Source: Apiotrichum sp. Y4204
Lineage: Eukaryota > Basidiomycota > Tremellomycetes > Trichosporonales > Trichosporonaceae
NCBI GenBank assembly: GCA_025531455.1
Contig: JAMYHL010000007.1
Span: forward strand, 1 to 64,000
Reading direction: 5' to 3'
Length of the DNA: 64,000 bases
Program-made: the position numbers and the translations under genes
Notes under the pieces: model-generated
Seen by the model: the letters and a program-made list of their open reading frames with translations, nothing else
What the model was told of the DNA's origin: nothing
The model's database searches: none
In this document: positions 50,199-60,844 of the stretch, piece after piece
How positions within the stretch are numbered: the stretch's first letter is position 1
Layout: each line of letters starts with the position of its first letter

Positions 50199-51691
50199 AC
50201 TGCGAGAAGAGGCGGAGGGAACTGCAGAAATACATGCTGGGACAAGGGTGAAAGTGTGAAGTAGAAGTGGATGCAATCCAACCCGCATCCCGATCGTTGC
50301 TTGTCCAGAATACCAGCCGCTGGGACAACACAATCTATACTGACCGAGTGGCCCTGTGTCTCGTCAGACCCTAGAAGTGTTGTCTGTAGGAGCTTCACAG
50401 TCCACAGGCACATTCTGAGTTACTCAAAAGTCAGGAATGGTGGGAATGAGTTGAGCGACACAGGTTTCCATTGTGCCGAGCCCAAGTTCTCTCAGGTCGC
50501 AATGGTGCCTCACGATAGGTAAGTTTTCGCAGTTGAGCAATGCGCTCTTCGTATTGTGGACGATCGGATCAGTAGATTCTGTAGAGTGGGGCGCCACAAG
50601 GGCGGGTCCTGAGCCTCGGAATCCTGTATTCTAGATCTGGCGGTTGTGTGACGCGCGGAGTCCCCACTTGTGCAGTCTAGTCCAATCTCCAGCGCACTGA
50701 AGCTCCTGGAGCTCGGGATCCACGTACTGTAGCTGCACGCACCGCGCCGCAGATTCCCGTCTTCGACCGACTCCGGGCCAATGTTGTTGTTGTTGAGGCT
50801 TTCTGCGCCGGGGGGGGTGAAAACTCGGAACGGAAAACGTTCTGGACCGGTGCTCAGTATTGCCTCGTGCCAGAGTGGTGCCCCGCCTGCCGGGCCCAAT
50901 GCCCCCCAAGACCCGAGTGAGATGGGATGCAGAGGCGGAGATGCAGTGGCGGAGGTTCCTGGAGACGAAGACATCCGGGGTGTTGCCGATCCTAGAGATA
51001 GTGAACCGGCGTGAAAGAGTAAGTACAAGAGCGCCACAAGGGAGCACGAGCGAGACGGGGTGCAGACGAGCTTGACGAGGCAGCCCACTGGCCACTGATT
51101 GAATGTTGCGACCACTTCACTGTTCATGGCCCTACTTATATGATATAGCCGGTGCGGAGCTGATTCCGACGGTCTCTTATAACAACAATAGCAAGGCGGG
51201 CTGGCGGATGTGGATGTGCATGTGGGCAGCGACCATATCCCAGCCGATCGGCAACAATGTGAGACGCTGCCATGTGGGATAGATAAGCCGTGGGCGGCGC
51301 CGAGATGCCGAGATTGGAAGGAGCGGCCGTGCGGCATTGGTCTCGGCAGGTAATCTGCCAGATTACGGGAAATTAATGATTGACTCTCGAGCTGGTTCAC
51401 GACTTACGACGACAAGGCACCTGTCACGCGCCGGCTCGTTCCTCGACAGCCGGCATGAAGAGCGGCCGCTGCATGGCGGAACTTGTCCCGTCCGCATATG
51501 TCGCCTACGAGAATGGCAATAAGGCAGGCCACTACTGTACTTTCTGCTCCTGCGCACTCAATCCGGACTCTAACCTTGTGCCTCCTTCCCCCCGGGACCA
51601 AGCAATCCCGGTCACAAGAATAGAATATATGGGAGCAGCTCATCGAGGGGGGTGGTAAGAGCACCCCCCGTATCCCCACATATCTACACCA
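50199..51691. other. Intergenic region
   Basis: About 1.5 kb upstream of the permease. A minus-strand open frame (50510-51400) is Ser/Cys-rich and has no recognised domain. The segment before 51692 is the permease promoter. No gene is called. Confidence 0.45.
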
Positions 51692-52438
51692 TGAGCACAG
51701 AGATCGAGAAGAGGGACACACACGCACCACCAGCGGTCGCCGGCGAGGGCACGCTGAAGCGTAACATTGGCGCGATCGGCATCATCGGCCTCGGCCTGTC
51801 CATCGTGAACGGCTGGGTTGCGATGAGCTCGACAATCGTCATCGGTCTTGGACAAGGTGGGACTCCCATCATCCTGTACGGCCAGATCGGGTGCAGCATC
51901 ATCAACGCGTTCCTCATCACCACCATTGCCGAGCTCTGTTCGGCCTACCCCACCGCCGGCGGACAGTATGTCTGGAGCGCAATCCTCTCGGGCAAGTCGA
52001 CATCAGACCGTGCAGCGCTCGAGGGCGACGAGGTCCGTCCATCAGCGGTCGAGAGCAAGTCTTCCAGCCGGCACCCTCTGGCGTTTATTGTCGGCTGGGC
52101 GACAATCTACGAGTGGATTGTAATTGTGGCGGCCGTGTCCATCATCTCCTCACAGGCAATCTTTGGCCTTGTTCAGACATTCCACCCCGAGTTTGAGGTG
52201 TCCCGCTGGATGGTCTTCCTCGTCATGCAGTTTATCAACACCAACTCGGCGATCGCCAACATCTTCTACGTCAACCGCATGTCGTGGATCGGCACGTTCT
52301 TCCTCTTCCTTTCCAACATTGTGTACCTCGTTATCATGATCACCTGCAGCGCATCGGCGCCGACCCACCAGCCGAGCTCATTTGTCTGGAACGGGTGGCA
52401 GAACGACATTGGATGGACCAACAAGTTTGTTGTCGCAG

Positions 52439-52443
52439 CTACT
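52439..52443. other. Left target-site duplication (CTACT)
   Basis: This is the five-base direct repeat CTACT immediately left of the LTR. The same five bases follow the right LTR at 59527-59531. A 5-bp duplication is standard for Ty3/gypsy integrases. Confidence 0.9.
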
Positions 52444-52729
52444 TGTCACTGCAGTACCTGGGTGTGCACGGCGCGACCTTAGGACAGTAGCGAATGGTGT
52501 AGTTCTAGCTAGGATGGTATAGACGCGATACATTCGCTACTGTAATCTACATGTACGAATGCTCTCTTATATACTGTGCGAACGCCAGCGTTCGCGCCTC
52601 GACAGCCTGCTCTCCGGCGGCCGTTCCTTAGTCATCCTTAGCTCCCATTGGTTGTCTTCCGAGAGCGGATGCCTGTGGTCCGTCCTCCGGAGGCATGCGT
52701 TCGGCACTACTCGGTGCAGGTCCGTGACA
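52444..52729 (-). repeat. Left LTR (3' LTR of the element)
   Basis: This 286-bp LTR is bounded by TGTCAC and GTGACA. It reads the same as the right copy over its whole length. On the minus strand it carries a TATATAAG box and a 13-bp inverted repeat. The polypurine tract lies immediately to its right. Confidence 0.95.
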
Positions 52730-52741
52730 TCCTCCCCCCTC
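52730..52741 (-). promoter_or_regulatory. Polypurine tract (plus-strand primer site)
   Basis: On the minus strand this reads GAGGGGGGAGGA and directly abuts the TGTCAC start of the element's 3' LTR. This is the expected place and composition of the RNase-H-resistant primer for plus-strand DNA synthesis. Confidence 0.85.
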
Positions 52742-53104
52742 AGGCCGGGCCGATGGTCCTGCATTCCGGGTCTCGAATGCGGGCGTTCTGGCTTGACGAA
52801 TGTGGGAGTTCGGGGCGCAGGGGCGCAGCTTGCGCCCCTCGAGCCTGGAACTTCGATTGCGTAATCGCCACGTTCGGCGATTGTCGTAACGCCGGGAGCC
52901 CCGCATGAGCCGTCCTCGAGGAAGGTGGCGACGGCGGACACAAGTGTTCTCGCGTGAGAACTGCAATCTTGACATTGTACTCCTCTCCATTCTCGACGTT
53001 CTCTTGCACGCCCGCGACCGCTCGCGAACCTCTCTTGCGCGCTCCTTCGTCCCTCGTTCTCCTTGCAGATCCGTTTCCTCCGTCGTCCCCGAACTACGCC
53101 CTCG
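52742..53104. other. Leader region of the antisense accessory gene
   Basis: This non-coding segment lies inside the element, upstream (plus strand) of the accessory gene. Its last 130 nt are pyrimidine-rich, like the leaders of host genes in this window. It ends with a CCTTGCAG acceptor-like motif about 35 nt before the ATG. A leader intron with a donor near 52950 (gtgagaac) is possible. No TATA box is seen here; the neighbouring LTR could supply promoter activity. Confidence 0.4.
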
Positions 53105-54013
53105 ATGGCGCCGAAGAAGAAGTCCGCGCGGGCCAGTGGTGGTGGTGAGGAGGAGAGGGGTTCGGACTCCGAATCCCTTCATTCGATCAACTCGGATGAC
53201 GTCGTTAAGCAGCCGAAGCAGCTCAAGGCTGCTGCCGAACAACGCCGTGCCGCCTATCGGTACAAGAACTTCGCTCGTGCGAAGGTCGTGCCCGCCAAGG
53301 ACAAGGCCCAGATTCTCAAGGATCTGGAGCAGCGTGCCGACGCCGCACTCAAGGGTTCGCGGGCGAAGTACTTCCTGCAGGTGGTGGAGCTTCTGGATTC
53401 GACTCCGGGAGCGCAATTAGTGGATGTCGAGGGTGAGTTATTCGGGGACGCGAACTCTAACCTTCTAGGGAACTGCGATAACTGCAAGGAGGGTTCGTGT
53501 GTCGTGGTCGCGCGTCCGTTCAGCGAGTCCGAGAAGGCCGAACTCAACGAGTCCGGAGCCCTCGAACTTGGTGGTCTCATCAAGAGCCTCAACCTTCGCG
53601 TGACGTCGCCATGCGTTCATTGCATCAAGAGTTCCATCGGATGTTCGGTTCGGCAGTCGTCGTACCGTCGTCGAGGCACCGTTGCGCTTAGTCCGGCTCA
53701 GTGGGACGCTGCCCAGGAGTTCGCCGACGCCGCTGCTCGGGCCGTTACGGGGCTCTACAACCTCGTCCCGAAGAGCCAGGTCGGCGCGGCGAAGGCGATA
53801 GCCCGCGAGTACCGTTTGGCGGCGGGTCGCTACCAGGACGTGGGTATTCGTGATGTCCGGACGCTGACGTTCTAGGTCCTCGGAACGCGTGTTGTGGAGA
53901 AGAAGTCCAAGAAACGCGCGGCCCGGACTCCGTCCCCCCTCCCCGAAGGTGTCGACGACTTGATCGAACTGATCAAGCTCGGCGAGCCTTCGAAGAAGAA
54001 GAAGCGCCACTAG
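53105..54013 (+). CDS. Antisense accessory gene of the retrotransposon: six-cysteine, basic-ended protein
   Basis: The gene lies on the strand opposite Gag-Pol and is convergent with it, with stop codons 225 nt apart. Exon 1 (53105-53839, 245 codons) starts MAPKKKSARASGGGEEE. An intron of 36 nt (53840-53875: gtgggt, then a GCTGAC branch site and TTCTAG acceptor) would remove an in-frame TAG. It joins in phase 0 to exon 2 (53876-54013), giving 290 residues. Without splicing the product stops after 256. Two cysteine clusters, C124-x2-C127-x4-C132 and C170-x2-C173-x6-C180, recall a zinc cluster with a stretched linker. Both ends are basic (PKKKSARA; final PSKKKKRH), resembling nuclear localisation signals. 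It is not Gag, Pol or an envelope protein, since no signal or membrane segment is present. Function is unknown; DNA or RNA binding is inference. Confidence 0.75.
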
Positions 54014-54237
54014 GCGAACGTTCTCTGCCGGTAGTGTCGAAAAAGACCGGCCGTGGACTCGCAGCAGTAGACCCGGGCCACGTATAACATCATCCGTCTT
54101 GCCCGAGGGTTAATTCCGGGCCCCGAATAGCAGCGTTCGGCGTTTTTGTAGAGTATTGTGTATAAGTCTCGCATGTATGGGTATGGTCGTGTATTCGTGG
54201 TATCTTTGAGTCAATTCGTCACCCGTGAGGGGGACTT

Positions 54238-57200
54238 CTAGTTGCCGGAGCGGCGAGGGCGGAGGCGCGAAAGCGGCGCCTTCGATTGCTCCGGAAGGAC
54301 GGGTTCGAGGACCCATCCTTTCCATCCGGGAGCCGTACGTGGCTTGGTGTTCGAGCGAACTCGGGGTTCTACCTTGTCCCGGATAGCAGCCCAATGGGGG
54401 TTCGAACACATCGTGTTCTCGGTTTCCCAACTGAATTCGGTGCCGCCTGGGCCTTCCCAGCGCACGCGGAACTGCTTCTGATCGCGTACCGTACGCCTCT
54501 GTACGACAGCCGCTGGGACTTTCGTCGTGTCAGCGAAGCCAGCCTCCTGCTGTTCTTCTTCCGGTTGCCCGGACGCCTCGTTCGAGTCGGCGCGGCCGTG
54601 GTACGGTTTGAGGAGTGAGACGTGAAACGTGTCGTGCGCACGTGTTCCGGCCGGGAGGTCGAGTCGGTACGTCACCGGATTGACAACCTTCGTAATGCGG
54701 TAAGGGCCTGCGAAACGGTCGGACAGCTTCTTCGAGGGCTGTAGCACCTTCAGGTTCTTGGTGCGAAGCAGCACTCGATCGTCGACTTCGAAGCTCTGGT
54801 CGCGATGCTTCGCGTTGTAGTGTCTGGCGTACCGGTCTCCCTGCTGTCGCATCGTCGAATGCAACAGTTCGTGGAGCGCCTCCAGGCGCCGCGCATGATC
54901 CTTAGCATTGAAGGGTGCGTCCATGTCCTTTGAACGGGCGTCGAACGCTGTCCTTCGTGGTTCGAATCCAGTGAGCGCTTGTAGAGGGGAGACTCCGGTG
55001 GTCGAATGCGCTGTACTGTTGTAGCAGAATTCTGCCTTTCGAAGGTGCGTCGTCCAGTTCGACTGGTCGGTAGAGCAATACGTGCGCAAGTACTGCTCCA
55101 AGTTCTTGTTCACACTCTCCGTCTGGCCGTCCGTCTGCGGGTGGAAGGCGGTGGACATACGGTGGTCGATCCCTAGGCTTCTAGCAGTCGATTGCCAGTG
55201 CAAGCTGGCGAACACCGAGCCCCGGTCCGTCACCAAGGTGGACGGGAGTCCCCAGCGCGTATACACGTGTTCGAGGAACAGAGACGACCATCCTTCGGCT
55301 GATAGGGTAGTGGTGGTCGGCACAAAGATCGCCATCTTCGTGAATCGATCCACTACCACTAGGATCGAATTGTAGCCGTCCGAGATCGGTAGCGGACCAA
55401 TGAAGTCTGCGGACAGGTGCTGGCAGGGTCGTAACGCCAGGGGGAGGGGCCGGAGAAGGCCGTTCGGCTTTCCGGGCGGTATCTTCGTCCTCTGGCAACG
55501 CGGGCACGAGCGCACGTATTCGGTGACTTCGTGACTCATGTTCGGCCACCAAAAGCGGACTTCTATGGATCGAAGTGTCCTGTTCGCGCCTGGGTGTCCG
55601 AACGCGGGGTCGTCATGGTAGGCCCGGATCACGGATGGACGGGCTTCGGGGCCGACGAAGAGTTGTTCGGCTCTGAACCACAGGCCGTTCAAAGATCGGA
55701 GGCCGTATTTCGCACGGGTCTGTTCGTCGGGCTCGCTTGCTAGGTTCAGGGTTGCGAGCAGCGAGTCCGCGACCATTGTTGTTGTGTTTTCGACACGACG
55801 GAGTTCGCAGCGAGGCTTGCTGAGTTCTTGTTTCGAAAGCCAAGGTCCGACAACATTGAACGGGTTGAGCTCAGCCGAAAGGGTCGTAGCCGTGGTGTCC
55901 GAAGGCTGGTGATCGGGCCGTCGGGAGAGGGCGTCCGGTTTCGTACTGATCTTCCCGGGCCGGTAGATGATTTCGTAAACGAATTCGCTCATGAATTCTA
56001 ACCAGCGCGCCTGGCGGCGCGTAAGGATCTTAGTCGTCGAGTAGAACTCTAAGCTTCGGTGGTCCGTATACACCTTGATCGGCTCTTGCGTACCTTCCAG
56101 GTAGTGTCGCCATGTTCGAAAGGCGTGTACGATTGCGAGGTACTCTTTATCGTGGGTCGGATAGTTGAGTTCGGCAGGTACCATCTTCCTTGACGCGAAC
56201 GCCACCGGGAGCCAGCCGCGCTCGTCCTTCTGGCTGAGGATGGCTCCGATCGCGTAGTCGGACGCGTCGGTTTCGACCATCGTAGGGTCCTCCGGCTTGT
56301 AATGGCGAACAACCTGGTTCGAGGCCATGATCCTCTTGACTTCGGCCCAGGCTGCCCGGATTCCGGGGGTGCAGACAAAGGTTCGCTTCTCGCCCTTTGT
56401 GGCTTCGATGAGCGGGATCGTAGCCTTCGTAAAGCCGGGAACTAGTGTCCGGTAGAAGTTTACCAGTCCCAGAAAGGATTGGACATCTCTGACGGATTTC
56501 GGCAGGGGCCATTCTTGGATGGCTCGAACCTTGTCTTCGTCCATCGAAACGCCTTCAGGCCTAATGTCGTACCCCAGGAACTGCACTCGATCGGTGAAGA
56601 ACTCGCACTTCTCTCCTTTGGCGTAGAGCTTGTTGTCGCGGAGTCGTTTGAGGACTTCGCGGCACGTACTCACGTGTTCGCGACGCGAAGACGTGAATAT
56701 TAAGATGTCGTCCAGGTACACGATCACACTGGTATCGAGCATGTCTCGAAAGATGTCGTTCATTAGGTGTTGGAAGGTAGCCGGTGCATTCGTCAGGCCG
56801 AACGGCATAACCAAGTATTCGAACAGGCCGAATCGAGTGCGGAAGGCTGTCTTCCATTCATCCCCCTCCTTGATGCGTACAAGGTTGTACGCCCCTCGGA
56901 GATCAATCTTCGAGTAGAACTTCTTTCCTTCGAGCTTGTCGATCAAGTCCCGGATCAAGGGGATCGGGTACCGGTTCTTGACTGTGATCGCGTTGAGGCG
57001 CCTGTAGTCTACGCAGAGTCGAAGGGAGCCGTCCTTTTTCTTAACGAAGAGGATCGGGGCCGCGGCCGGCGAGGTCGATGGCCGAATAAAGCCCTTCGCC
57101 AGGTGTTCGTCCAAGTACTCTCGTAAGGCCGCCTGTTCCGTAACCGATAGCGAATACAGTGGCCCGAAGGTGGTTTGTGCGCCTTCCAGTAGCCGAATAG

Positions 57201-59211
57201 AGTGATCGAAGCGCCCGTGTTCGGGAAGCTTGTCGGCTTCCTTCTTGGAGAACACGTCCTTAAAGTCCGCGAACTCCGGAGGGATTGTTGTGGCTTCGAG
57301 GATCTCTTGCTTGAGTTCGGCTCTCGAAACACGGAGTTCGGGCGGGTAGCGGGGCCGCATGGTACGGGCTTTCCAATCGATGTCCGGGTTTATCTTTTCT
57401 AGGAACGGAAGTCCCAGAATGATCTCCGGAGCCTTGCCTTCGAGGATCTCGAAGGCTCCTTCGTAGGGGTGAAACCCTTCGCCGAAGTTGACGGTGATTC
57501 TGGTGTGTCGGTCGAGGGGTGCCTCGGCCGCCGTAGCGAGACGTACGTTCTCCGGAGACGCCTTGTTCGTTACCCGGAGATTGGTCTTCTGTACCATTTG
57601 GGGCGTTACGAAGTTGCGGTTCGCGCCGCAGTCGATAAACGCACGAGTTTGGAAGAGTTCGCCCTTGTCACCGCGGAATTCGATCGGGATCGTGAACATG
57701 GGTGGCGTTGGGTGGTCTTCTTTGTGCGAAGTTGTAGGTTCGATGTGCGCATAAGCGCAACGGGGGCGCGGACCCTCGTCCTCGATGTCGATTGCCGTGA
57801 CTTCGAGTTCGGATTCGGAGTCGAACAGGATGGGGTCGTCCTCCCGCGGGAGGTCGCCCTCCGAGTCTGAGTCCAAGTATTCTTCTACTCGGGCCATCGC
57901 GATTCGGGGCGCGGGGGCCGCTGTTCGGTTTGGGTTGTTACGGCAGTTCGCCCAGCGGTGGTCTCCTGATCCGCAGCCGAGACACTTGCCTTCGGCACGC
58001 CATTTCTCCTTCTGGGCGAACGAAGGTCGCCCGGAAGAAGGGTGCCTTCCGGAAGTCGGACGTTGCTGTCCGCCGTGGGGACGGGCATCCTTCGGTTGGG
58101 AGGTTATCCTCGGAGTGTCGAACTGGCGGGTTCGACCGTGCCCTTGGTGCTCCGTTCGGATCTCTCGGAGTCGCTGTTCGATGGCGGTCGCTGCAGAAGC
58201 CAACGCCTTCGGCTTCTCGTAGACGCGCCCTTGTTTGATCAGCTCGTCCTTCAACTGGTCTCGGAGGCCGAGTTCGAACTGGTCGGTAAGCGCTCGTTCG
58301 TCCCAGAGCGTATACGGTGCCCAGGCAATAAACGCCGTATAGTATTCTTGCACCGAACGCGTGTGCCGAGTCCTTCGAATGTTGTATACGGCCTCGCGTT
58401 GCGCGTTCGCAGGGCCGAATTGTCCGAGGAGTTCGGCTGCGAACGAAGCCCAGTTGTCCCTCCATTCGGGGTTCCCGTAAGTGACTTCGGAGTGGTACCA
58501 TTGTTGAGCCTGGCCCCGAAGGAAGGTGGACGCCCACACGATCTTGTGGCGATCGTCTGCGAAGTGCCAAGGTTGAAGGTCGAATGCCGTCTCTACTTGT
58601 CCTAGAAACAGGGCTACCTTATTGGCTTCTCCGTTGAATTCGGAGGGTTTGTTCGGGGCGATCGGCTTACCGTGGAAGCGGTGGTCAGGGTCGACAGTCA
58701 GGGTTCGCTCCCTCGAAGGGAGGCGTTCGGGGGGCGTCTCCCTGAACTCGCTATCGTAACGCCGGGCGCCGTGCTGGCGAAGGCGGTCCTCATGAGGAGG
58801 GTCTTCGCGGTTTTCGTACTCAAGTTTTCGAATTGTAGTTTTCATGGTTTTCTGTTCTCGGACCATGTCGTCGAGGTTGTCTTGAACTCTCTCGAGTTTG
58901 GACAGTACGGCGAACATGGCTTCGTGTAGGTCGATGTTGTTTTTCGCTGGTCGTTCGTCGTCTTCGTTGTCGAAAAGCTGACTATCTTCCTCTAGGACGC
59001 TGTCGTCCTCATCAAGGTCTTCGTCCTCTCGGAGGCTCTCGTTCGGGGTCGCTCCCTGCGGTCCGGTGGGGGTACTAGGCCCATCCGGATGGGGAAGTTC
59101 GGTGGCCTGCCGAACCTCCATTTCGACTCCTTCGGTCCGAGTACTCGGGCCTTGGGAGCGTGTAACTCTGTCTGTTCGACCGGTCGGAAGCCGGTTGTTC
59201 GGGAGCGACAT
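54238..59211 (-). CDS. gag-pol: Gag-Pol polyprotein of a Ty3/gypsy chromovirus
   Basis: One uninterrupted frame of 1657 residues starts MSLPNNRLP at 59209-59211, 29 nt inside the right LTR. Gag comprises an acidic N-terminus, a short coiled coil (about 92-135), a capsid-like region (about 190-350) and a CCHC zinc knuckle (C410, C413, H418, C423). The aspartic protease has DCGA at 527-530, where most relatives have DSG. Reverse transcriptase spans about 690-885 with YLDD at 832-835. RNase H starts near 979 (ETDASDYAIGA). Integrase has H1199/H1206/C1236/C1239 and a catalytic triad D1269, D1329, E1365. A chromodomain-like segment (QFRVRWEGPGGTEFSWE, about 1566-1610) lies near the C-terminus and usually guides integration to heterochromatin marks. 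There is no frameshift or stop between gag and pol, so Gag excess must come from processing or decay, as in Tf1-type elements (inference). Confidence 0.96.
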   Translation of the reverse strand: MSLPNNRLPTGRTDRVTRSQGPSTRTEGVEMEVRQATELPHPDGPSTPTGPQGATPNESLREDEDLDEDDSVLEEDSQLFDNEDDERPAKNNIDLHEAMFAVLSKLERVQDNLDDMVREQKTMKTTIRKLEYENREDPPHEDRLRQHGARRYDSEFRETPPERLPSRERTLTVDPDHRFHGKPIAPNKPSEFNGEANKVALFLGQVETAFDLQPWHFADDRHKIVWASTFLRGQAQQWYHSEVTYGNPEWRDNWASFAAELLGQFGPANAQREAVYNIRRTRHTRSVQEYYTAFIAWAPYTLWDERALTDQFELGLRDQLKDELIKQGRVYEKPKALASAATAIEQRLREIRTEHQGHGRTRQFDTPRITSQPKDARPHGGQQRPTSGRHPSSGRPSFAQKEKWRAEGKCLGCGSGDHRWANCRNNPNRTAAPAPRIAMARVEEYLDSDSEGDLPREDDPILFDSESELEVTAIDIEDEGPRPRCAYAHIEPTTSHKEDHPTPPMFTIPIEFRGDKGELFQTRAFIDCGANRNFVTPQMVQKTNLRVTNKASPENVRLATAAEAPLDRHTRITVNFGEGFHPYEGAFEILEGKAPEIILGLPFLEKINPDIDWKARTMRPRYPPELRVSRAELKQEILEATTIPPEFADFKDVFSKKEADKLPEHGRFDHSIRLLEGAQTTFGPLYSLSVTEQAALREYLDEHLAKGFIRPSTSPAAAPILFVKKKDGSLRLCVDYRRLNAITVKNRYPIPLIRDLIDKLEGKKFYSKIDLRGAYNLVRIKEGDEWKTAFRTRFGLFEYLVMPFGLTNAPATFQHLMNDIFRDMLDTSVIVYLDDILIFTSSRREHVSTCREVLKRLRDNKLYAKGEKCEFFTDRVQFLGYDIRPEGVSMDEDKVRAIQEWPLPKSVRDVQSFLGLVNFYRTLVPGFTKATIPLIEATKGEKRTFVCTPGIRAAWAEVKRIMASNQVVRHYKPEDPTMVETDASDYAIGAILSQKDERGWLPVAFASRKMVPAELNYPTHDKEYLAIVHAFRTWRHYLEGTQEPIKVYTDHRSLEFYSTTKILTRRQARWLEFMSEFVYEIIYRPGKISTKPDALSRRPDHQPSDTTATTLSAELNPFNVVGPWLSKQELSKPRCELRRVENTTTMVADSLLATLNLASEPDEQTRAKYGLRSLNGLWFRAEQLFVGPEARPSVIRAYHDDPAFGHPGANRTLRSIEVRFWWPNMSHEVTEYVRSCPRCQRTKIPPGKPNGLLRPLPLALRPCQHLSADFIGPLPISDGYNSILVVVDRFTKMAIFVPTTTTLSAEGWSSLFLEHVYTRWGLPSTLVTDRGSVFASLHWQSTARSLGIDHRMSTAFHPQTDGQTESVNKNLEQYLRTYCSTDQSNWTTHLRKAEFCYNSTAHSTTGVSPLQALTGFEPRRTAFDARSKDMDAPFNAKDHARRLEALHELLHSTMRQQGDRYARHYNAKHRDQSFEVDDRVLLRTKNLKVLQPSKKLSDRFAGPYRITKVVNPVTYRLDLPAGTRAHDTFHVSLLKPYHGRADSNEASGQPEEEQQEAGFADTTKVPAAVVQRRTVRDQKQFRVRWEGPGGTEFSWETENTMCSNPHWAAIRDKVEPRVRSNTKPRTAPGWKGWVLEPVLPEQSKAPLSRLRPRRSGN

Positions 59212-59227
59212 CCTAAGGTGCGATTCT

Positions 59228-59238
59228 CGAATGTATCG
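59228..59238 (-). promoter_or_regulatory. Putative self-complementary primer-binding site
   Basis: On the element's sense (minus) strand, two bases (GA) follow the 5' LTR and then CGATACATTCG. This 11-mer is the exact reverse complement of CGAATGTATCG in the same strand of the LTR (59323-59333), where the mRNA is expected to begin. No TGG, the mark of a tRNA-primed site, is present. The arrangement matches Tf1-type self-priming, in which the mRNA 5' end folds back as primer. Confidence 0.65.
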
Positions 59239-59240
59239 TC

Positions 59241-59526
59241 TGTCACTGCAGTACCTGGGTGTGCACGGCGCGACCTTAGGACAGTAGCGAATGGTGTAGT
59301 TCTAGCTAGGATGGTATAGACGCGATACATTCGCTACTGTAATCTACATGTACGAATGCTCTCTTATATACTGTGCGAACGCCAGCGTTCGCGCCTCGAC
59401 AGCCTGCTCTCCGGCGGCCGTTCCTTAGTCATCCTTAGCTCCCATTGGTTGTCTTCCGAGAGCGGATGCCTGTGGTCCGTCCTCCGGAGGCATGCGTTCG
59501 GCACTACTCGGTGCAGGTCCGTGACA
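59241..59526 (-). repeat. Right LTR (5' LTR of the element)
   Basis: This is the 5' LTR in element orientation. On the minus strand TATATAAG (59370-59363) lies 37 nt upstream of CGAATGTATCG (59333-59323), the predicted transcript start and self-primer. A perfect 13-bp inverted repeat, ACAGTAGCGAATG (59281-59293) and CATTCGCTACTGT (59328-59340), would form a hairpin in the 5' end of the RNA, overlapping the primer. Confidence 0.95.
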
Positions 59527-59531: not shown

Positions 59532-60497
59532 GGACTGGTGAACCCTGGTGAGTAGTGCTGGAGATGTTGGAGATGAAATTGCTGACGGAAGGCTTTGTTT
59601 GGTCCGGTGTCGATGGCGCGGTACACATCGCCGAGGACTGCCTCAACCCGGCACGGACAGTCCCGATGGCGCTCTTCTCGTCGATCGGCCTTGGCTTTGT
59701 TACCGGCTTCACCATGTCCATCGCGCTCCTCTACTCGGTCCAGGACGTTATCGCTGCTGCCGCCTCAGAGCTCCCCTTCCTGACCATCATCGTGCAGGCA
59801 ACGCAGTCCAAGGCTGCCGGCGCAGTCTTCATGACCTGCTTCCTGCTCGTCATCTCGATCATGACCAACTCCATCCAGATGGCCTCGTCCCGCCTCATCT
59901 GGTCCTTTGCGCGTGACAAGGGCCTGCCATTCTCGTGCGCGCTCTCGCACGTGTCCCCCAAGCTCCGCGTTCCCGTCCTTCCTATTCTCCTGTCATGGTT
60001 TGGCGTCGTCATCCTCGGATGCCTCTACATCGCCTCAGACACAGTGTACAACTCGATCATTTTGTGCTGCATCATTCTCCAGAACTTTGCCATCGCCGTC
60101 GTCGCCACGCAGCTCATGCTCCGCGGCCGCAAGATGAACCCCAACCGCTGGCTCAAGCTCGGCGTCTTTGGCTGGGTCGCCAACATTATCACTGTCGTGT
60201 GGACAATCTTCTCCACCATCATGTGGCTCTTCCCCGTCACCCCGAACCCGACCCCTTCCGAGATGAGTGAGTGCAGGCAAATTTTGTCCATTTTACCCAC
60301 CACTAACTATTTCAGACTGGTCGGTCGTCGTCCTGGCCGCCATGGCCCTGATTGCTGGACTTGATTGGGTCGTCTACGCACGCAAGCACTTCCGCGGTCC
60401 GAGTACTGCCACCCTCGACGCCATCGACACGCTCGCCGACTCCCGCGTCGACGCACCAGAACTCGACGCCAAGCGCGAGGTTGCACACGCGTCGTAG

Positions 60498-60844
60498 CCT
60501 GGGAGCCGGGGTATTAGTTAGCACTCTGCGCGCGGCGCATTTAATGTTTTGTCACTTGTTGGTCCTTGCGTTTGCTTTATGCATATAAACTTTGAATCAG
60601 AAGTAATTCTCGACGCGAGTTTTGGATTTTCTTGAGCTGGACAATGGTGGACATAGGATGAGAGGGGCAAAAGTGGGGATGGACAGGAGTGGCCAGAATA
60701 CTGTTGCCCGCTCGTTACACCCATCAGATGTTATGGACCGTTGTGTGAGAGCTGCGCACATGTTGCAGGCTAGAGTACACGATACCATCAAACTCAACGT
60801 TAATTAACATCAATCAACATCAAACAACATCGTCCGCCAGCAGA
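60498..60844. other. Intergenic region between convergent genes
   Basis: About 350 bp separates the 3' end of the permease from the 3' end of the next SDR gene. It is relatively AT-rich, with repeated ATCAA(A/C)C motifs near 60808-60828. No gene is seen. Confidence 0.45.

Follow-up and report, generated by a model that had tools for sequence, protein, structure and literature searches.

Fungal Ty3/gypsy elements, which belong to the long terminal repeat (LTR) retrotransposons, are usually described as carrying gag and pol only. Antisense genes situated between pol and the 3' LTR are, however, known from several elements. Boty of Botrytis combines a chromodomain-containing gag-pol (PMC4227169) with an antisense gene, brtn, in this place (PMC8365987 and PMC4227169, citing Zhao et al. 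2011; Boty is also listed in PMC7264820, and BRTN in PMC5987419). In plants, antisense open reading frames (ORFs) of this kind, denoted aORF-3R, include gene23 of Grande, which has its own promoter, and those of RIRE2 and Retand (TRP28) (PMC7264820, PMC11963269). Among retroviruses, the human T-cell leukemia viruses (HTLV) express antisense genes from the 3' LTR that yield spliced forms and encode nuclear regulators, HBZ and APH-2 (PMC10186651). Here we describe a gene with the same location and orientation in a 64,000-nucleotide stretch of DNA (hereafter, the window; contig JAMYHL010000007.1, positions 1 to 64,000) from the basidiomycete Apiotrichum sp. Y4204, where it resides in a complete, chromovirus-like Ty3/gypsy retrotransposon on the minus strand (52444-59526). 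Antisense genes in this place being already known in plants and in the ascomycete element Boty, the suggestion in an earlier note on this DNA that no such protein had been described in fungal chromoviruses needs qualifying; the version with six cysteines is a new variant. The wider pattern, with such ORFs at nine loci in five lineages, is a more interesting result than the single gene.

The predicted gene, encoded by the plus strand, lies in the region that separates the pol end (54238) from the 3' LTR (52729) and comprises three exons encoding a protein of 278 amino acids (aa). The frame opened by the ATG at 53105 runs to 53875, and exon 3, which extends the gene to the stop codon ending at 54013, is read only after splicing because intron 2 ends in an in-frame TAG. 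Intron 1 is in frame with the exons, and its retention would leave the frame unbroken. All 6 cysteines of the protein belong to two clusters, C-x2-C-x4-C and C-x2-C-x6-C, separated by 37 residues, and basic stretches are found at the protein ends (MAPKKKSAR; KKSKKRAAR; SKKKKRH). The spliced antisense ORF, the two clusters and the basic ends had all been read from the window in the earlier note, and all three were recovered.

Like the plant aORF-3R genes, the window gene is a coding antisense ORF between pol and the 3' LTR that is conserved in copies of the element, and the plant proteins have been suggested to be nuclear or DNA-binding. Retand differs in belonging to a non-chromovirus lineage and in having a longer pol-3' LTR region, and the window protein has no Pfam match to PF04195, the family of TRP28. 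Boty brtn is likewise fungal, antisense and located between pol and the 3' LTR, although Boty is an ascomycete element and is likened to the window gene by the described place and strand of brtn. HTLV is a retrovirus and HBZ a bZIP protein, whereas the window protein has six cysteines and no bZIP match. A literature search, mostly outside subscription papers, found no antisense six-cysteine gene described in a basidiomycete element, and by term count the word "antisense" is absent from a survey of fungal LTR elements (PMC3248453).

The evidence for coding comes mainly from a second complete copy of the element in the same genome (C124:21135-28211), which has identical LTRs of its own (0/287 differences), a target-site duplication (TSD) ATCTT and an open gag-pol. 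The antisense protein of this copy is 76% identical to that of the window and keeps the frame, start, stop, 6 of the 6 cysteines, both 36-nt GT-AG introns and the basic ends, which resemble nuclear localization signals (NLS). By the Nei-Gojobori method, the exons of the two copies differ by 0.759 substitutions per silent site (dS) and 0.155 per amino acid-changing site (dN), for a dN/dS ratio (omega) of 0.205 over 276 codons; for exon 3 alone, beyond the stop of the unspliced frame, the ratio is 0.143. Thus, both predictions of the earlier note, conservation in another full-length copy and dN/dS below 1, are borne out. The exon substitutions are distributed over codon positions 1/2/3 as 44/34/108 (P 5e-12), and, in the unspliced stretch, the five alternative frames have omega values of 0.39-2.28 and 4-19 stops. 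Between the copies, 17 of 17 donor, branch and acceptor positions are identical in intron 1 and 16 of 17 in intron 2, compared to 9 of 19 and 10 of 19, respectively, in the remainder of each intron. Judging from these patterns, the antisense gene almost certainly codes for a protein, and the sequence evidence that the antisense pre-mRNA is spliced, as it probably is, is strong. Several other interpretations were rejected: a chance ORF, by the codon-position pattern and omega; a sense-strand gene at the same place, by the minus-strand frames included in the above ranges; TAG read-through in place of intron 2, by the diverged intron interior and the kept splice signals; a recently captured host gene, by a genome search that yielded two matches only, both inside elements; and an Rfam RNA, for which there was a single chance match below the gathering cut-off.

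A reverse transcriptase (RT) family search of the genome, in which 20 candidates were scored, detected at least 17 RT loci, of which 14 scored above the cut-off; 14 stretches were examined, with the three loci below the cut-off outside this set. Eleven loci are chromovirus-like by similarity to the window pol (RT 54-99% identical). The pol-3' LTR region is assembled in 8 of these 11 (C150, which is the window copy, C124, C94, C104, C113 end, C172, C17 and C171) and is missing from the assembly or the element in the other three (C131 is internally deleted, and C82 and C157 stop short of it); the start of C113 supplies a ninth assembled region. An antisense ORF with two C-x2-C-xn-C clusters is present in 9 of the 9 loci in which the region is assembled, representing five lineages, so that what the earlier note treated as a feature of a single element extends well beyond it. 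In C94, a gene of four exons is predicted, with introns of 42, 36 and 34 nt, and the two clusters fall on separate exons. A fixed regular expression for the motif matched 6 of 14 sequences, always on the antisense strand, but 0 of 280 sequences shuffled by triplets and nothing in the 56.9 kb that flank the element in the window; C172, with one spacing of 9, and C94, whose motif is split by an intron, escaped it. The six-cysteine motif was found neither in the less related RT stretches C172:633500, C132 and C90 nor in the stretches of C131, C157 and C82, and the decayed copy C93 retains a remnant of 33 residues that contains a stop.

Apart from the RT loci, a DNA search with the LTR and the adjoining block identified two full copies and four contig ends that break 74-77 nt inside the LTR. 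The flanks of these contig ends pair through 5-bp TSDs (C37/C103, TCTGA; C123/C173, CCAAC), indicating two further insertions, probably in assembly gaps. The C104 element, which has 1.2-kb LTRs, carries an extra 429-aa antisense ORF adjoining the six-cysteine ORF (stretch L026, 8218-9504, minus strand), which is rich in Ala, Glu and Lys and coiled-coil-like by eye. Short diverged direct repeats are located in or near the 3' LTR of C113, ahead of the antisense ORF (stretch L030, 1388-1731); tandem repeats in the pol-3' LTR region have been reported for plant Retand elements. At C113 end, the contig breaks off within the second LTR copy, which leaves the LTR undelimited.

That the antisense proteins form a single family is established only partly. 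Those of C104 and C113 end are homologous (E 3e-5, z 16.5), and the respective elements are sisters in the RT tree (support 94/95). Comparison with C94, the RT sister of the window element, gave z 2.1 for the window protein and z 3.7 for C124, scores that prove little because similar values were obtained, among the 28 pairs, for C150/C172 (z 3.6) and C94/C113 end (z 3.4); in all other cross-lineage pairs, z is < 3. Profile comparison between lineages yielded probabilities of 0.2-18% for ten pairs, including 9% for the window protein and C94, aligned on the second cluster. All four profile pairs that include the window protein aligned on a cysteine cluster, in two of the four its second cluster against the first of the other protein, and in one of the ten pairs (C104/C172), the reversed control outscored the true comparison. 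The cysteine spacings form a series from the Zn2Cys6-like arrangement (2,6,8,2,8 in C104 and C113 end) through 2,6,10,2,9 (C172), 2,6,16,2,6 (C94) and 2,4,8,2,6 (C17) to that of the window protein (2,4,37,2,6). Basic starts are found elsewhere in the set, namely, MPPRKK in C172 and MGRADKRKK in a candidate first exon of C113 end.

Codon comparison shows purifying selection on the antisense gene in three pairs, with omega of 0.08-0.23. In addition to the window copy and C124, these are C17/C171 (dS 1.105, dN 0.253, omega 0.229, 355 codons) and C172/C113 start (dS 1.252, omega 0.080, 256 codons); dS values near or above 1 are rough. In 2 of the 2 pairs for which a pol comparison is available, the silent-site divergence of the antisense gene exceeds that of pol, by a factor of 3.3 in C150/C124 (0.759 vs 0.231 for gag-pol) and 8.4 in C17/C171 (pol dS 0.132). 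This excess would reflect exchange of the region by recombination, or a homogenised gag-pol, rather than positive selection on the protein. Within gag-pol itself, the silent divergence between the window and C124 is uneven, 0.11 in gag and ~0.34 at residues 601-800, which suggests mosaic ancestry.

Together, these observations lead us to propose, tentatively and with a little less than even confidence, that a whole group of chromovirus-like elements in basidiomycetes encodes, as a standard part that has gone unrecognised until now, antisense proteins with six cysteines. Their genes would form an exchangeable cassette, held under purifying selection but with a turnover several-fold that of gag-pol. 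Such cassette turnover would be expected of element-encoded regulators or anti-silencing factors that contest host silencing or sister elements.

The host element (Table 1) shows the LTRs, TSD, gag, and RT-RNase H ahead of integrase that define Ty3/gypsy elements. In the gag-pol protein, gag, RT, RNase H, integrase and a Tf2-type SH3 domain are all above the Pfam cut-offs, whereas the protease match is below, as is the chromodomain (PF00385, E 0.0045, 17.3 bits vs a cut-off of 25.1). A duplicate of the locus on C106 contains no insertion and has a single target sequence, one base different, so the window insertion is young; together with the identical LTRs, the TSD and the open gag-pol, this empty site confirms the earlier description of a complete young element. 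The leader begins GACGATAC, without TGG at the start, and its complementarity to the LTR was equalled by 0 of 2000 shuffled leaders. The arrangement is likely to be self-primed (Tf1/sushi type): in Tf1-type elements, leader/LTR complementarity likewise takes the place of the tRNA site, and the Tf2-type SH3 match is a further resemblance. Tf1 is not known to have an antisense gene. Upstream of the antisense gene, a 183-nt non-coding block is 95% identical between the copies vs ~75% on either side, has RNA fold z values of -2.2 and -2.8 on the two strands, and is a candidate antisense promoter or RNA element. In the window, the element splits what appears by eye to be an amino-acid permease-like gene (51691-52443 / 59532 on). 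The host region (51000-52443 and 59532-60600) has a second, 93%-identical copy at C106:1077377-1078120 in this 48.9-Mb assembly, a pattern consistent with a hybrid or duplicated genome.

Table 1. Features of the antisense gene and its host element (window positions)
Feature	Positions	Strand	Basis
Exon 1 (ATG 53105; basic start MAPKKKSAR)	53105..53432	+	ORF and copy comparison
Intron 1, 36 nt, GTGAGT...CTAAC...TAG	53433..53468	+	Splice and branch sites kept, interior diverged
Exon 2, both cysteine clusters (codons 53474-53500, 53612-53644)	53469..53839	+	ORF and conserved Cys
Intron 2, 36 nt, GT-AG, in-frame TAG at end	53840..53875	+	ORF and copy comparison
Exon 3 (basic, NLS-like end; stop TAG)	53876..54013	+	dN/dS 0.143
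Block upstream of antisense gene, rich in inverted repeats	52803..52985		Copy comparison
3' LTR (286 nt, TG...CA; also DNA upstream of antisense gene)	52444..52729	-	Identical to 59241-59526
5' LTR	59241..59526	-	Identical to 52444-52729
TSD CTACT, left	52439..52443		Once in C106 empty site, one substitution
TSD CTACT, right	59527..59531		Matches left TSD
gag-pol, single ORF, 1657 aa	54238..59211	-	Pfam domains
Likely self-primer binding site	59228..59238	-	11 nt complementary to LTR 59323-59333, 93 nt from LTR end
Polypurine tract GAGGGGGGAGGA, adjoining 3' LTR	52730..52741	-	Sequence

With regard to function, we see about an even chance that the product of the antisense gene is a zinc-cluster-like nuclear factor that influences expression of the element itself. 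In favour of this reading are the intact second copy with its low omega and kept splice motifs, the six-cysteine ORFs at all nine assembled loci, the purifying selection in two further pairs, the series of cysteine spacings that begins with a Zn2Cys6-like form, and the basic starts in C172 and C113 end. Antisense transcription would start from a dedicated promoter upstream of the gene, probably within 52730-53104 or at the U3 end of the LTR, and splicing of the pre-mRNA at the two 36-nt introns would yield the basic, zinc-cluster-like protein of 278 aa. Given its composition, this protein may bind zinc and enter the nucleus, where it would bind nucleic acid and act in trans on the element's DNA or RNA, regulating expression; both this target and the sign of the effect are presumptive. 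An antisense orientation allows a gene with introns to persist through the sense RNA stage, since its splice sites are recognised on the opposite strand alone. We regard a positive or anti-silencing effect as somewhat likelier than self-repression: a copy that had lost a self-repressor should spread more rapidly, but the gene has stayed intact. With omega low in all three pairs, the product seems to benefit the element copies encoding it, which favours a positive, anti-silencing or targeting role over simple self-repression. By analogy, the HTLV antisense proteins indicate that repression can be maintained too. The regulatory role that the earlier note had raised is presumptive here as well, and long purifying selection is not most readily explained by "copy control" through self-repression.

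Several results weigh against a zinc-cluster-like regulator. Gal4-type Zn2Cys6 clusters (PF00172) consist of two C-x2-C-xn-C halves, as does the window protein, and follow the rule C-x2-C-x6-C-x5-12-C-x2-C-x6-8-C. The spacings of C104 and C113 end fit this rule, not the Pfam score, whereas the window protein, with x4 in the first half, a 37-residue linker and no Pfam match, departs from the binuclear cluster; none of the antisense proteins reached the Zn_clus (PF00172) cut-off (C104, E 3.8). Few basic residues lie between Cys 2 and Cys 3, unlike in Gal4-type DNA-binding clusters. The window protein had no Pfam match above the cut-off (best, PF21725, E 0.011, at chance level) and no significant match among PDB sequences (best E 0.7), and its fold model is poor (mean predicted local distance difference test score 54.8) and unfit as a search query. 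Searches of a set of 5.8 billion proteins, which require shared exact words, returned nothing at E 1 or better among 6509 candidates for the window protein, and nothing at E 10 or better among the 7996 candidates sharing the most words with the two-copy alignment. This set is not blind to fungi because fungal relatives of pol are present, at up to 65% identity among the matches listed (Tremellales sp. Uapishka_1, 65%; Trichosporon asahii, 61%; Cutaneotrichosporon oleaginosum, 58%), but it would lack element genes that were masked or escaped prediction. Viral contigs searched with pol and with a pol alignment gave no useful result. Furthermore, cross-lineage homology apart from C104/C113 end is weak or not significant, and the candidate first exons of C17/C171 start with MPFGGAG, which is not basic. 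Finally, a simple regulator-operator partnership finds no support in the divergence of U3, which accompanies that of the antisense gene in one pair but not in the other: in C150/C124, U3 is 81-84% and R-U5 99% identical (100-nt windows), whereas C17/C171 have a 97% identical LTR and an antisense ORF of 68.6% identity, so that co-evolution of the two as a general rule was rejected.

Alternatively, the protein might be a nuclear entry or targeting factor that binds cDNA, integrase or Gag and carries the pre-integration complex to the nucleus or to chosen chromatin, with no transcriptional regulation. The NLS-like ends kept in both copies, the weak match of the element's own chromodomain and the retrovirus-like accessory roles proposed for plant antisense ORFs (PMC7264820) are all compatible with such a function, but a separate antisense transcript would be odd for a part needed alongside Gag-Pol, and we consider it unlikely. 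We give no better prospects to a self-limiting regulator, in which the protein and/or the antisense RNA would repress sense transcription or trigger silencing, as HBZ and APH do in HTLV. These counterparts share the place, orientation and splicing of the window gene and lower viral or LTR expression (PMC10186651), and the copy number in the assembly is low (two full copies and two insertions at contig ends); selection between copies, however, should favour loss of a repressor, in contrast to the low omega in all three pairs. That the antisense RNA is the working part and the ORF incidental is very improbable: antisense transcription alone can silence (discussed in PMC7264820), but the third-position excess, the low omega, the kept splice sites, the coding conservation past the stop and the purifying selection in two further pairs, that is, conservation at the codon level, largely refute this explanation. 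Least probable is that the ORF arose by chance or was captured recently from the host and is useless to the element: GC-rich DNA yields long frames (8 of 2000 shuffles were as long), making ORF length by itself weak evidence for coding, but the conserved copy C124, the genome matches only within elements and the same kind of ORF in five lineages refute it.

If several element lineages of one basidiomycete indeed each keep a spliced antisense gene, annotation that reads only the sense strand or masks repeats has missed a class of fungal element proteins. Such a class would link the plant antisense ORFs and brtn of Boty to a function testable in yeast, that of an element-encoded nuclear regulator or anti-silencing factor. 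The fast turnover of the antisense gene beside a conserved pol has a driver, host defence or rivalry among elements, that is testable by comparing copies.
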